Of a DNA stretch of 64,000 nt, positions 31,282 to 64,000 are shown in pieces. Location: positions 1 through 64,000 of the forward strand of contig NZ_JAXHLN010000003.1 in assembly GCF_034522235.1 (NCBI RefSeq), in the 5' to 3' direction. A program made the translations under genes and the position numbers. The notes beneath the pieces were generated by a model that saw nothing but the letters and a program-made list of their open reading frames with translations, made no database searches and was not told the DNA's origin. Numbering within the stretch: position 1 is the first letter of the stretch; each line of letters opens with the position of its first letter. This DNA comes from Thiohalophilus sp. Lineage in GTDB: Bacteria; Pseudomonadota; Gammaproteobacteria; UBA6429; Thiohalophilaceae.

Positions 31282-33303
31282 ATGTCCACGATTCTCAATC
31301 CCCGACAAAACCAGGCCGTGCGCCACATCGACGGGCCGTGCCTGGTGCTGGCCGGGGCCGGCAGCGGCAAGACCCGGGTCATCACCCACAAGATCGCCTA
31401 CCTGATCCAGGAGTGCGCCATCGACGCCCGGCACATCGCCGCGGTCACCTTTACCAACAAGGCGGCACGGGAGATGAAAGAGCGGGTCGGCAAGCTGCTG
31501 CGCGGCGACGCCGGCAAGGGGCTGCGGGTCTCCACCTTCCATACCCTGGGGCTGGATATTCTGCGTCGCGAATACAAGGCGCTGGAGTTCAAATCCGGTT
31601 TTTCCATCTACGACAGTGCCGACAGCACGCACCTGCTCAAGGAGTTGATGAAACGTTCCTTCGGCGATGACGGCGGCCAGGCCGAGCGCATGCTGTGGCA
31701 GATTTCGCGCTGGAAAAGCGAGTTCGTTCTGCCCGAACAGGCTCTGCAACTGGCCGACGGGGATGCGAATAAAACCGCCGCGGCCCTGCTGTACGAACAG
31801 TATCGTCATTATCTGAAGACCTACAACGCGGTCGACTTCGACGATCTGATCATGCTGCCGGTGATCCTGTTTCGCGAACACCCGGAGATTCTCGAACGCT
31901 GGCAAAACCGGATTCGTCACCTGCTGGTGGATGAATACCAGGACACCAACTCCACCCAGTACGAACTGGTCAAGCAATTGTGCGGTGTGCGCGGCAACCT
32001 GACCGTGGTGGGCGATGACGATCAGTCCATCTATGCCTGGCGCGGCGCCCAGCCGGAGAACCTGTCGCTGTTGCAACAGGACTATCCCAGACTGAAGGTG
32101 ATCAAACTGGAGCAGAATTACCGTTCCACCGGCTGTATCCTCAAGGCCGCCAACCGGCTGATCGCCAGCAACCCGCATGTCTTCGAAAAACGATTATGGA
32201 GTGAGCTGGGTTACGGCGATCCGATCCGGGTGATTTGTACCCGCCACGATCAGCACGAGGCGGAACAGGTGATCTCGGAGATCATGCATCACATGTTCGT
32301 GCAGCGCACCCAGTATGCCGATTACGCGATTCTCTATCGCGGCAATCACCAGTCCCGGCTGTTCGAACAGGCCCTGCGCGAACACGATATTCCCTATTAC
32401 CTGAGCGGCGGCACCTCGTTTTTCGCCTATACCGAGATCAAGGACATCATGTCCTATCTCAAGCTGATCACCAATCCGGACGACGACAACGCCTTTCGCC
32501 GGATTATCAACACTCCGCGCCGCGAGCTCGGCCCCGCCACGCTGGAGAAACTGACCGAATATGCCATGGGCCGCGGCCACAGCCTGTTTGTGTCCGCCAT
32601 GGAGTTTGGCCTGAGCCAGGTGCTCAGTGAGCGGGCTGCCGAAAAGCTGCAGCGTTTCTGTCACTGGATCCTGGATCTGCAACATCAGGCGGAAGGTGAC
32701 GCACCCGCCTCGGTGGTCAAACGGCTGATCGTCGATATCGATTACGAGCGCTATCTGCTGGATAACAGTCGCGACGAGATCATCGCCGAGCGCAAGCTGG
32801 AAAACGTCAACGAGCTGGCCAACTGGATCGAGCGCCTGGCCAAAGCCAATCCGGACGCCTCACTCAACGAACTGGTGGCCAAACTGACCCTGCTCGACAC
32901 CCTGGATCGCAACGAGGAAGACGAGCGCGGCAACCGGGTCCACCTGATGACCCTGCATGCCGCCAAGGGGCTGGAGTTTCCCCATGTCTACCTGGTCGGC
33001 ATGGAAGAGATGTTGCTGCCGCATCGCAGCAGTATCGAGGAAGAAAACCTCGAAGAAGAGCGCCGCCTCGCCTATGTCGGCATCACCCGCGCCCAGAAAA
33101 CCCTGACCCTGACCTACGCCAACCAGCGCAAGCGCCACGGCGAGATGCAGGAATGCAGCCCGAGCCGCTTCATCGACGAGTTACCGGACGAGGATCTCAA
33201 ATGGTCCGGCGAAGGGGTACAGATGGATCCCGAGGAGCGCCAGGAGCGCGGCCAGGCCCATCTGGCCAACCTGCGCAGCATGCTGACAGGGAGCGATGGA
33301 TAG
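31282..33303 (+). CDS. rep: ATP-dependent DNA helicase Rep
   Basis: 673-residue superfamily 1A helicase, the same length as E. coli Rep, which helps replication forks pass protein roadblocks. Motifs: Q motif NPRQNQAV, Walker A AGAGSGKT near residue 26, TFTNKAAREM (Ia), DEYQDTN (II) near 218, GDDDQSIYAWRGA (III), LEQNYRS (IV), LMTLHAAKGLEF (V), EERRLAYVGITRA (VI). The N-terminus and the absence of UvrD's longer C-terminal tail favour Rep over UvrD. Directly followed by a GTGCTGA tandem array. Confidence 0.93.
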   Translation: MSTILNPRQNQAVRHIDGPCLVLAGAGSGKTRVITHKIAYLIQECAIDARHIAAVTFTNKAAREMKERVGKLLRGDAGKGLRVSTFHTLGLDILRREYKALEFKSGFSIYDSADSTHLLKELMKRSFGDDGGQAERMLWQISRWKSEFVLPEQALQLADGDANKTAAALLYEQYRHYLKTYNAVDFDDLIMLPVILFREHPEILERWQNRIRHLLVDEYQDTNSTQYELVKQLCGVRGNLTVVGDDDQSIYAWRGAQPENLSLLQQDYPRLKVIKLEQNYRSTGCILKAANRLIASNPHVFEKRLWSELGYGDPIRVICTRHDQHEAEQVISEIMHHMFVQRTQYADYAILYRGNHQSRLFEQALREHDIPYYLSGGTSFFAYTEIKDIMSYLKLITNPDDDNAFRRIINTPRRELGPATLEKLTEYAMGRGHSLFVSAMEFGLSQVLSERAAEKLQRFCHWILDLQHQAEGDAPASVVKRLIVDIDYERYLLDNSRDEIIAERKLENVNELANWIERLAKANPDASLNELVAKLTLLDTLDRNEEDERGNRVHLMTLHAAKGLEFPHVYLVGMEEMLLPHRSSIEEENLEEERRLAYVGITRAQKTLTLTYANQRKRHGEMQECSPSRFIDELPDEDLKWSGEGVQMDPEERQERGQAHLANLRSMLTGSDG

Positions 33304-33344
33304 TGCTGAGTGCTGAGTGCTGAGTGCTGAGTGCTGAGTGCTGA
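33303..33344. repeat. Tandem 7-bp repeat (GTGCTGA)n
   Basis: Six perfect tandem copies of a 7-base unit begin at the rep stop codon. The unit contains TGA in one of three frames, so any readthrough in that frame would stop. Confidence 0.85.
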
Positions 33345-33618
33345 GGGTAGTTGAGCAGGCTTTTGCCTGAAATGGTGGGAGGCGATTGACGTACAAGGAC
33401 GTACTACCCCGGCTCTGTTCCTGACAGAGCTCGGGATACACGCCATCCCTGGCGATAATGTCGCGTGAGGCAGGACGATGTACAGGAAGTACAAGTGTCG
33501 CGAGAGACCAGGGAGGGTCGAAGCGACTGCCGAGAGCGACGCATCAGCGACCCTGTTGGGATTCGCAAGGTCGCGGCGAAAAGCCCCTCCCAGATCCAGC
33601 ATGCGCAGCATGCTGGAT
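33345..33618. repeat. Repeat-rich spacer with family E element
   Basis: No gene. Contains GACGATGTACAGG followed by AAGTACAAGTGTCGC at about 33474-33501, matched at 50404-50430, and several short inverted repeats (for example GCATGCGCAGCATGC near 33599-33613). This is mosaic repeat DNA. Confidence 0.6.
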
Positions 33619-33712
33619 GTGACGAGGGACGAGGGACGAGGAAGTAATAAGAAAAAGCCGGGCATCGCCCGACTTTTTCTTTGCCTCGTCCCTCGTCACT
33701 CGTCCCTCGTCA
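33619..33712. repeat. Family A inverted repeat around a terminator
   Basis: Arms 33619-33641 and 33684-33712 (GACGAGGGACGAG and inverse) enclose the intrinsic terminator at 33652-33679. The right arm is read as the last codons (VTRDE) and stop of the cytochrome c gene. Confidence 0.8.
33652..33679. terminator. Bidirectional intrinsic terminator between rep and cytochrome c genes
   Basis: AAAAAGCCGGGC-ATC-GCCCGACTTTTTC: GC stem flanked by A-run and T-run, positioned between convergent genes. Confidence 0.85.
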
Positions 33713-34190
33713 CAGCCGCAGGCCTATTTGCTTTCGCGACCATATATTCCACGGCGGCCTTGACTTCCTCGTCGCTCAGGCCGGCGTTACCGCCTTTGGG
33801 CGGCATGCCCTTGAAGCCGTTGATGGCGTGGTCGAACAGGGTGTCGTTACCCTTGGCGATACGATCCGCCCAGGCCCCCTTGTTACCCAGTATCGGCGCG
33901 CCGGCCGCACCGGTAGCGTGGCAGGCCATACAGGCCGAATCATAGACTGACTTGCCGTCAGCCCCGCCCCCGCCGCCAGCGGTTTCCTGCTTGACCTCGG
34001 CCGTGTTCACCTGGCCGATGGGCGCGATCCGCTCCTCGATGGCCGCCTGCACCCGCGGATCATTCTGGACATCCACGGAATCCTTGCCGCTGATGGCATT
34101 GGCGCCGATGATGGCCAGCACCATGAATACCAGCAGGCCAATCAGAATCCCCACAAAAACCTTCATAAAATCCGTGTCTTTTTGGTCCAC
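33696..34190 (-). CDS. Membrane-anchored cytochrome c5-type protein
   Basis: 164-residue monohaem cytochrome. Starting at GTG 34190 (GAGGGG eight bases upstream) it has a short N-terminus, one membrane helix (MKVFVGILIGLLVFMVLAII), a Gly-rich linker, haem motif CMACH, and the distal methionine in FKGMPPKGG, typical of c5/CccA-like domains. Likely a periplasm-facing electron carrier. The C-terminal residues RPAAVTRDE are encoded by a family A repeat. A longer frame upstream to 34253 is possible but lacks a ribosome binding site. Confidence 0.87.
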   Translation of the reverse strand: MDQKDTDFMKVFVGILIGLLVFMVLAIIGANAISGKDSVDVQNDPRVQAAIEERIAPIGQVNTAEVKQETAGGGGGADGKSVYDSACMACHATGAAGAPILGNKGAWADRIAKGNDTLFDHAINGFKGMPPKGGNAGLSDEEVKAAVEYMVAKANRPAAVTRDE

Positions 34191-34403: not shown

Positions 34404-34480
34404 GCGCCCGTAGCTCAGCTGGATAGAGTATCGGTCTCCGACACCGAAGGTCACAGGTTCGAATCCTGTCGGGCGCGCCA
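34404..34480 (+). tRNA. tRNA-Arg (anticodon CCG)
   Basis: 77 nt with a complete cloverleaf: acceptor GCGCCCG/CGGGCGC, D arm GCTCAGCTGGATAGAGT, anticodon stem TCGGT/ACCGA with loop CTCCGAC (anticodon CCG, reading CGG), T arm ACAGGTTCGAATCCTGT, discriminator G and encoded CCA. It is followed by tandem repeats that include copies of its last 19 bases. Confidence 0.98.
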
Positions 34481-34487
34481 AATAAAT

Positions 34488-34518
34488 AAAAGCCCATACT
34501 ACATAGTATGGGCTTTTT
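34488..34518 (+). terminator. Intrinsic terminator after tRNA-Arg (unit 1)
   Basis: AAAAGCCCATACTA-CA-TAGTATGGGCTTTTT; stem of 13-14 bp with T-run, 8 bases after the tRNA CCA. Confidence 0.9.
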
Positions 34519-34524
34519 GCTTTA

Positions 34525-34656
34525 CGCCCACAGGATGAGAACCTGTGAAACAGGTTCGACAAGCAACCGGAGGTTGCGCAGAACGCCGGCGCGTCAGCAA
34601 CGGCGGCCCCGAAGGGGTGAGCCGCTGTGCGGCGAATAATCCTGTCGGGCGCGCCA
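34525..34656 (+). ncRNA. Candidate structured RNA with tRNA-like 3' CCA (unit 1)
   Basis: CGCCC-ACAGGAT at 34525-34536 pairs with ATCCTGT-C-GGGCG at 34639-34651 (12 bp, one bulged C) and leaves CGCCA as the 3' end. Inside are hairpins AACCTG/CAGGTT, GCAACC/GGTTGC, CCCC/GGGG and GCCGC/GCGGC. This predicts a multibranched RNA closed by an acceptor-like stem. Transcription would require passing the terminator at 34488-34518. Prediction only. Confidence 0.45.
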
Positions 34657-34663
34657 AATAAAT

Positions 34664-34694
34664 AAAAGCCCATACTATGTAGTATGGGCTTTTT
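34664..34694 (+). terminator. Intrinsic terminator (unit 2)
   Basis: Same stem as in unit 1 but with the loop reversed: ACTATGTAGT in place of ACTACATAGT, its exact reverse complement. Confidence 0.88.
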
Positions 34695-34700
34695 GCTTTT

Positions 34701-34832
34701 CGCCCACAGGATGAGAACCTGTGAAACAGGTTCGACAAGCAACCGGAGGTTGCGCAGAACGCCGGCGCGTCAGCAACGGCGGCCCCGAAGGGGTGAGCCG
34801 CTGTGCGGCGAATAATCCTGTCGGGCGCGCCA
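34701..34832 (+). ncRNA. Candidate structured RNA with tRNA-like 3' CCA (unit 2)
   Basis: Second copy of the element at 34525-34656, offset by 176 bases with the same pairing potential, ending in the third copy of the 19-base tRNA 3' end. Confidence 0.42.
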
Positions 34833-34833
34833 T

Positions 34834-34876
34834 AAAATGCAAAAGGGTCTTCCTTGGGAAGACCCTTTTGCATTTT
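34834..34876 (+). terminator. Intrinsic terminator closing the tRNA repeat array
   Basis: AATGCAAAAGGGTCTTCC-TT-GGGAAGACCCTTTTGCATT, about 19 bp stem followed by TT. Unlike the first two, and directly before the amidohydrolase gene. Confidence 0.85.
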
Positions 34877-63597: not shown

Positions 63598-64000
63598 CTC
63601 TCGCAGAGACGCAGAGGTCGCAGAGAATAAACGATAGTAGTTTCTCTGCGCCGTGGCGTCTCTGCGAGAGATCCGCTTTTTCCTTCTACGACACCTGCCT
63701 CAAACAGGGATAACCACCGAAACACCGAACAACACCGCCGATTGCCGGACACCGCGTTGCTATGTCCGGCCTACCAATGGACGGCTCTCGCAGAGACGCA
63801 GAGTACGCTGAAGAATAAACGCAATATCAATTTCTCTGCGCCCTGGCATCTCTGCGAGAGCTCCGCTTTTTCCTTACTACGACACCTGCCCCAAACAGGG
63901 ATAACCACGAAACATCGAACAACACCGTTGCCGGACATCGCGTTGCAGTCCGGCCTACCAATGGATTACTCGCGAGACGCAGCGTGCGCGGAGAATAAAC
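63598..64000. repeat. Tandem array of ~185-bp mosaic repeat units, cut by window edge
   Basis: Units begin near 63598, 63785 and 63968. Each has a family C hairpin (CTCTCGCAGAGACGCAGAG with inverse), then CCGCTTTTTCCTT...ACGACACCTGCC, AAACAGGGATAACCAC and a family D element (63738-63775 and 63928-63960). The third unit continues beyond the window. No gene seen. Confidence 0.85.

Follow-up and report, generated by a model that had tools for sequence, protein, structure and literature searches.

The tandem array behind a Thiohalophilus tRNA-Arg(CCG) gene matches the tRNA-linked repeats, units in which a hairpin cassette splits a copied RNA-gene loop

By sequence comparison and covariance-model matching, the tandem array that follows the tRNA-Arg(CCG) gene in the DNA analysed here (64,000 nucleotides from Thiohalophilus sp., hereafter the window) is a pair of tRNA-linked repeats (TLRs), a kind of element that is already known. 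TLRs were described in E. coli in 1978 and comprise 22 copies at 10 loci, the rtT of tyrT among them; according to the same source, they had no known function as of 2021, with the exception of RrA, RrB and RrF behind 5S rRNA; a role in starvation that had been claimed early for rtT was withdrawn (PMC8144298). New here is the anatomy of the unit, which consists of a T-loop split between tRNA positions 58 and 59, an antisense T-arm and an exchangeable hairpin cassette.

The window contains a single tRNA gene. Behind it, the initial annotation had described two full 176-bp units and a third start, each opening with the last 19 nt of the tRNA, and this layout was confirmed (Table 1). TRF returned a 176-bp period with 2.1 copies and 98% matches, its score of 721 being the top of 20 rows. 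The direct repeats at 34462-34637 and 34638-34813 are 98% alike, and the third start (34814-34837) is 92% alike over 24 nt, with the tRNA-derived 19 nt identical. Both units open with the same last 19 nt of tRNA-Arg(CCG), and the copied 3' end of unit 1 is identical over 19 nt once position 34638 is counted in. The antisense arm of unit 1 is 86% complementary over 22 nt to positions 34451-34472 of the tRNA, with GA in place of TC at the T-loop. The terminator scan listed the stem-loop of unit 2 on the plus strand and that of unit 1 on the minus strand only. No further TLR was found in the window by R1, the covariance model described below, the next matches having E values of 0.12 or worse. The window also holds a 190-bp tandem repeat at 63598-64000 (2.2 copies, 85% alike, reaching the window end) and heptanucleotide repeats at 33302-33345 and 33621-33713 (AGTGCTG, 6.3 copies, and GACGAGG/CCTCGTC); short runs resembling the latter sit just upstream of tRNAs at two other loci (L015 and L221).

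Table 1. Positions of the array parts in the window and of comparison loci in other genomes.
Feature	Position	Strand	Basis or remark
tRNA-Arg(CCG)	34404..34480	+	ARAGORN; Rfam tRNA 69.4 bits
tRNA-Arg(CCG) T-loop TTCGAAT	34458-34464		position 58 = 34462, numbering counted back from CCA
Unit 1 terminator-like stem-loop, 14-bp stem, T-rich tail	34488..34517	+	inverted-repeat search
TLR unit 1, R1 match	34522..34656	+	99.1 bits, E 1.1e-23; itself among the 36 training units of R1
Unit 1 antisense arm	34525..34548	+	complementary to tRNA T-arm and part of acceptor
Unit 1 copied T-arm 5' half GGTTCGA, before cassette	34553..34559	+	sequence; mostly conserved in alignment A1
Unit 1 hairpin cassette C...GAATA, 79 bp, splits T-loop	34560..34638	+	sequence, fold, homologous cassettes
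Unit 1 copied tRNA 3' end, positions 59-76	34639..34656	+	CCA = 34654-34656
Unit 2 terminator-like stem-loop, 14-bp stem, T-rich tail	34664..34693	+	inverted-repeat search; terminator scan
TLR unit 2, R1 match	34698..34832	+	99.1 bits; RF00391 43.2 bits
Unit 2 antisense arm	34701..34724	+	inverted-repeat search
Unit 2 hairpin cassette	34736..34814	+	repeat comparison, fold
Second copied tRNA 3' end (third repeat start)	34815..34832	+	direct-repeat comparison
20-bp inverted repeat ending array	34834..34876	+	terminator-like by eye only; absent from terminator scan list
L160	G149:C13:16100-17200		tRNA-Ser(TGA) copy with cassettes in D-loop and T-loop
L199	G237:C21:1100-2300		TLR behind tmRNA
L204	G399:C7:33600-34700		TLR behind tmRNA
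L243	G038:C18:569700-573700		TLR-bearing tRNA-Arg(ACG) preceded, at about 0.5 kb, by a RAYT-like Y1_Tnp gene

The E. coli description of TLRs places one to five copies per locus in tRNA or rRNA operons, and the window has two behind its tRNA-Arg(CCG); internal sequence and structure common with the E. coli TLRs were found through R1, which was built from 36 units, two of them E. coli rtT. The Rfam family RtT (RF00391) matches the window units with 43.2 and 42.9 bits (E 3.8e-7 and 4.7e-7), neither reaching the curated cut-off of 45 bits, and the units are likely, as judged by these scores, to be RtT homologues lying under that threshold. At E ≤ 0.1, RtT has matches in 16 of 40 relatives, above the cut-off in two of the 40, while among 14 control genomes E. 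coli alone is matched. In addition to the tyrTV repeats on which it was trained, R1 matches untrained E. coli repeats behind the argQZYV, lysT-operon and lysV tRNAs and, with E 1.9e-9, the repeat behind 5S rrfB, which is absent from the training set. The Lys and Arg repeats have identity runs of 18-19 nt with their host tRNA, and in three more K-12 tRNA stretches (L235, L237, L239) R1 scored no better than E 0.5 and no copy was seen. Only tyrTV and rrB are named TLRs among the repeats matched, the other E. coli repeats having been judged by the TLR definition.

The K-12 tyrT/tyrV repeats (rtT/RttR) carry their parts in the same order and with similar sequence as the window units, the order being GGATGAGAA..GGTTCGAC, hairpins and GARTAATCC, and E. 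coli TLRs resemble them in their tandem arrangement, in a unit length of about 180 bp and in copying 18-19 nt from the 3' end of the upstream tRNA. The window units differ from E. coli rtT in their Arg(CCG) host, in having a terminator-like stem in each unit and in scoring just under the Rfam cut-off. A recurrent element or RNA class common with tyrT rtT, as first proposed from the window, is thereby supported, with RF00391 and R1 matching both sets; since this class has already been named in E. coli, its occurrence at an unrelated tRNA is not new. The 5S repeats RrA, RrB and RrF likewise have a cassette of the same kind after a terminator and end in a copy of the host RNA 3' end (L242), but their host is 5S, of which the final 11 nt are copied together with the next 7, making 18 in all. 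That RtT contains a tandem GA motif has been noted earlier (PMC7657543, PMC8250186); among the antisense arms of our alignment A1, some units have GA opposite GA and others TC opposite GA, which pairs. TRIP1 repeats were considered and set aside, as they lie at other loci and the accessible text describing them gives no sign of a relation to TLRs (PMC10888264).

Further units are present in the same genome (3.06 Mb, 3 contigs), for which R1 gave 13 matches at E ≤ 1e-3. Three 186-bp copies lie behind tRNA-Gln(TTG), a 198-bp unit behind tRNA-Arg(ACG) and a 191-bp unit behind a second tRNA-Arg(CCG) (L017); units also follow Val(GAC) and Ser(TGA), and a truncated one is found at Ser(GGA). At the second tRNA-Arg(CCG) locus, a stem near-identical to that ending the window array directly follows the tRNA, so that the stems come in a permuted order at the two loci. 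Two cassettes of this genome lie elsewhere: one splits the D-loop where the 5' end of a tRNA-Ser has been copied upstream of its intact gene (C3:1686453-1686528), the other lies behind 5S rRNA with an 18-nt copy of the 5S end (C2:476379-476448).

Beyond this genome, R1 at E ≤ 1e-3 has matches in 75 of 185 sampled genomes and in 72 of 176 genera of the class, and at E ≤ 1e-6 in 71 of 398 genomes over the phylum, among which are some from other classes. Of the R1 loci fetched, 29/30, 9/9 and 45/59 have a tRNA whose own 3' end is repeated downstream of it, with 3 mismatches in 15 as the most allowed, the last set being loci chosen by place. The 14 by-place loci in which no detected tRNA had a downstream copy include two with the copy upstream of the tRNA (L147 and L151), two with units behind tmRNA genes that carry a 19-nt copy of the tmRNA 3' end and the same T-loop break (L199 and L204), two with CCA-ended repeats and no called tRNA (L154 and L171), and an array of 173-bp units matched by both RtT and R1 in a stretch without a tRNA (L185). 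The hosts of TLR units include 19 tRNA species, 5S rRNA and tmRNA. In a literature search that was thin in subscription journals and preprints, no paper was found on TLRs in D-loops or at tmRNA, nor on TLRs as a family outside the Enterobacterales, other than an annotated Thioalkalivibrio RtT (PMC8092127). Cassette-like hairpin fragments were also seen in two fetched stretches in which no tRNA was called (L093 and L227).

The anatomy of the unit was established on 169 units from 117 loci in 58 genomes (E. coli and Klebsiella included) with 19 tRNA species as hosts; tandem copies are included, up to 3 mismatches in 15 were accepted, and some units were counted from two tandem tRNA genes (for example in G372, G336, G376 and G573). 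Unit length in relatives is narrow, in keeping with the recurrent element first proposed, with a median of 178 bp and an interquartile range of 167-185. Counted from the CCA end, 103 units have a run of exact identity of 19 nt and 30 units one of 18 nt, so that 133/169 fall at 18-19 nt, with 33 shorter and 3 longer runs; this places the break at T-loop positions 58|59. The copied tail begins in the T-loop because a GC-rich hairpin cassette, which reads C...GAGTA or C...GAATA and has a median length of 75 bp, splits the loop between these positions, and in a typical unit the 5' half of the T-arm, GGTTCGA or a variant of it, precedes the break with the cassette standing between the halves. The upstream antisense arm had a median complementarity score of 13 with its own tRNA, compared to 7.5 with tRNAs of other isotypes. 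Together with the copied T-arm, this means that both T-arm strands are typically present in a unit and that they fit its own host.

The cassette behaves as a discrete insert. A search of four genomes with one cassette as query found cassettes away from tRNA 3' ends in D-loops of copied tRNA 5' ends (as upstream of an intact tRNA-Ser gene in G039), at the 5S end and, inverted, at the T-loop of tRNA-Phe (G038), with GA usually preceding and A following the insertion site. The E. coli rrB cassette follows ..GGA and precedes AACTGCC. When 165 tRNA genes were scanned for copies of their 5' end lying upstream, 12 were found, of which 5 break after exactly 22 nt (in the D-loop), 2 after 57-58 nt (in the T-loop) and 5 after 16-42 nt; one of the five D-loop cases (G067) breaks after TTA rather than GA. 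The clearest layout is that of the tRNA-Ser(TGA) copy at L160, which reads as 22 nt, a 73-bp cassette, 51 nt, an 80-bp cassette and 9 nt. Its 82 non-cassette nt are identical to the intact 91-nt gene downstream, the last 9 nt being missing in the copy; the 73-bp cassette follows GGTCGA and the 80-bp cassette GGTTCGA, and the two cassettes are closely alike over their first 28 nt or so and more divergent thereafter. L147 has tRNA-Gln copies with a split T-loop and three R1 matches spaced by 213 bp; the 57 bp upstream of the intact gene recur there before a split copy. A broad scan for split tRNAs was too noisy and was not used for counts, which rest instead on focused checks (upstream copies, L160, L147, tmRNA). 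Two further layouts were noted: related hairpin modules of about 45-55 bp are nested in two hairpin loops of a tRNA-Gln TLR cassette (L084, G001:C11:8900-10300), and in the tRNA-Phe TLRs of Klebsiella pneumoniae CP125156.1 (L020, 280966-284002; a 5.4-Mb record labelled plasmid) a 37-nt cassette stretch equals that of the window but is inverted relative to the tRNA.

Cassettes also appear to be exchanged between tRNAs, and units are gained and lost as wholes. Near-identical cassettes stand behind different tRNAs of one genome while the arms still fit each host tRNA, as with the Gln and Val cassettes of G039, which are 95% alike. Among 107 cores (units lacking TTCGA, identical units and one Klebsiella locus excluded), median cassette similarity, taken without a control for base composition, was 0.70 for different tRNAs of the same genome (n=94), compared to 0.67 for the same tRNA (n=559) and 0.65 for different tRNAs (n=5016) in different genomes. 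The nearest relative of 75 cores was at another tRNA of the same genome in 17 cases, at another tRNA of another genome in 45 and at the same tRNA of another genome in 13; as the latter two classes find their nearest relative in another genome, recent movement is demonstrated in some cases only. Of 5426 complete E. coli genomes, 4655 have an rtT unit by megablast, which may miss diverged units, and each of these has it at 1-9 places. E. coli Z1323PEC0010 has zero units at both tRNA-Tyr genes of its tyrT/tyrV locus, and the second of them leads directly into the sequence found after the last unit of a five-unit strain. A zero-unit allele with the same downstream sequence indicates that units are gained or lost exactly.

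Discrete cassette insertions thus occur in T-loops, in D-loops and near the 5S end, and whole units are present in some E. coli strains and absent from others. As to how this came about, we consider it probable that TLRs are hairpin cassettes inserted in the loops of redundant RNA-gene copies. The cassette would be a mobile non-coding element that invades RNA-gene loops, entering the loop of a redundant copy, usually after GA, as judged from the end products. Insertions would persist only where the redundant copy leaves one gene intact, and units would multiply and vanish by recombination between their 18-19-nt identical ends, a mechanism proposed for a gain and loss that is itself observed. 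Against insertion stands the antisense T-arm of the 3' units, which is not explained by simple insertion in a duplicated gene, and tandem duplication with hairpin growth by replication slippage could mimic insertion.

A bolder version of the insertion model is plausible, though we would sooner doubt it than adopt it: mobile hairpin cassettes, spread over the class and inserting in either orientation, would target RNA-gene loops by single-stranded DNA transposition, TLRs being the survivors in redundant copies. With the same reserve, the targets would be the T- and D-loops of tRNAs, the T-loop of tmRNA and, as a candidate loop, the near-3' site of 5S. GNA loops make up 197 of 312 triloops in the units, compared to 3-8 of 54-75 in five shuffle sets, and have a C-G closing pair in 144 of 162. 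C(GNA)G triloops are exceptionally stable in single-stranded DNA, and hairpins built on them would point to a single-stranded DNA route; a literature search on the special DNA stability of GNA triloops yielded nothing usable.

A different possibility is that TLRs are selected non-coding RNA genes, giving a structured, CCA-ended RNA by terminator read-through with growth-linked regulation as proposed for RrB. The structured part of each window unit is predicted to form one multibranched fold, with energies of -69.2 kcal/mol (z -4.46) for unit 1 and -68.6 kcal/mol (z -4.52) for unit 2, and 0 of 200 shuffles were as good in either case. In the predicted minimum-energy structure of unit 1, CGCCCACAGGAT (34525-34536) pairs with ATCCTGTCGGGCG of the next unit, and the closing stem put forward in the initial annotation (12 bp, one bulged C, CGCCA left 3') is the same stem. 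Covariation was found across hairpins and closing stem, with 149 pair cells of A1 changed on both sides against a shuffle mean of 55 and at most 47 in slid controls, two of five measures lying within the shuffles (pairs with a both-side change, 71/500; pair types, 123/500). The structure used for this test and for R1 was written by hand from the window-unit fold and pair counts, which biases both towards these sequences, and RNAalifold gave only a weak consensus on A1 (-3.6 kcal/mol, 14 pairs), with the closing stem missing. In the closing stem itself, where covariation had been named as the check, 4 of 7 pairs are changed on both sides; as antisense copying of each host tRNA could create the same pattern, this is no independent proof of RNA function.

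Mismatches in the cassette hairpins are strand-specific, with 19 G.A and 0 T.C, compared to 2 and 4 in the terminator-region control; G.T and A.C mismatches, in small numbers, were 8 and 5 in cassettes and 13 and 2 in controls. This sense-strand bias and the covariation suggest more than a parasite. Mismatches were counted in 133 clusters, for which units without a recognisable TTCGA were dropped, and loops in 140 units; units with N and identical ones were removed, and one Klebsiella locus was left out throughout. Some unit loops match the CsrA consensus, and GGA is found in 18.3% of unit loops compared to 11-15% in shuffles, while CARGGA occurs in 22 of 140 units compared to 13-23 in shuffles. 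With GGA loops only mildly enriched and CARGGA within the shuffle range, a general CsrA/RsmA sponge is not supported and was rejected.

Experiments on relatives favour an RNA role: RrA, RrB and RrF are bound by Hfq and CsrA (PMC8144298), and an annotated RtT sRNA was upregulated in a Thioalkalivibrio low-temperature experiment (PMC8092127). The 173-nt RrB has its 3' end 3 nt beyond the repeated 5S end (PMC8144298). To judge from RrB, transcription would read through the first terminator and the copied end would be processed like that of the host, and the window units may be a putative source of CCA-ended RNAs. Nevertheless, the copy number in E. coli ranges down to 0 and up to 9, the tRNA-Phe cassettes of Klebsiella and G038 have the opposite orientation, GGA enrichment is mild, and the other 19 TLRs score <0.01 for a CsrB/C-type RNA (PMC8144298), and we regard it as unlikely that TLRs are RNA genes maintained by selection.

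Considerably less likely is an origin by site-specific integration, in which a tyrosine integrase acting at the 3' end of the tRNA would have left each unit as a scar and its 18-19-nt copy as an att repeat. Integrases usually cross over in the T-loop and leave a duplicated tRNA 3' end, as tRNA-integrating islands and prophages do, and with this the break, the duplication and the exact gain and loss of whole units would agree. However, one cassette family serves 19 tRNA species, 5S and tmRNA, the mirror-image copies of tRNA 5' ends are interrupted in the D-loop, and units of about 180 bp, unlike islands and prophages, are too small for an integrase gene; an att repeat would belong to an element with its own integrase and one host tRNA species, which does not describe the units themselves.

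Marginally less probable still is a REP-like nature of the cassettes, with mobilisation by REP-associated Y1 transposases (RAYT). REP and BIME elements are short non-coding GC-rich hairpins in intergenic DNA and resemble TLR cassettes in this respect, but TLR cassettes sit in loops of RNA-gene copies; in REP systems with RAYT the transposase gene is flanked by the repeats. A Y1_Tnp gene is present in 47 of 75 TLR genomes compared to 46 of 110 others (Fisher p 0.007, uncorrected for genome size or phylogeny), and in G038 the distance between one such gene and a TLR is about 0.6 kb (L243). On the other hand, no Y1_Tnp was detected at E ≤ 1e-10 in 28 of the 75 TLR genomes, among them G149, for which R1 gave 10 matches, and of 12 Y1_Tnp loci examined only that of G038 has an R1 match (E<0.01), the other 11 having none. 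With an association that is weak and not obligatory, and flanks not shared in 11/12 loci, mobilisation by RAYT/REP was rejected. Least credible of all is a retro-element that uses the 3' ends of tRNAs as primers or templates for reverse transcription. The copied 18 nt (59-76) correspond in extent to a retroviral primer-binding site, but cassettes are found in either orientation and also in D-loops and at the 5' ends of tRNAs.

The interest of these results lies in the family-wide evidence and not in the window locus alone. TLRs pass from an oddity of E. coli to a family widespread in the class, with some genomes in other classes of the phylum, and insertion into RNA-gene loops would offer a testable origin for a puzzle dating from 1978. 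If the cassettes move, they would represent a selfish element bound to genes that are among the best conserved in the cell; should they instead be retained as RNAs, tRNA trailers would be a large and little-recognised source of structured small RNA.
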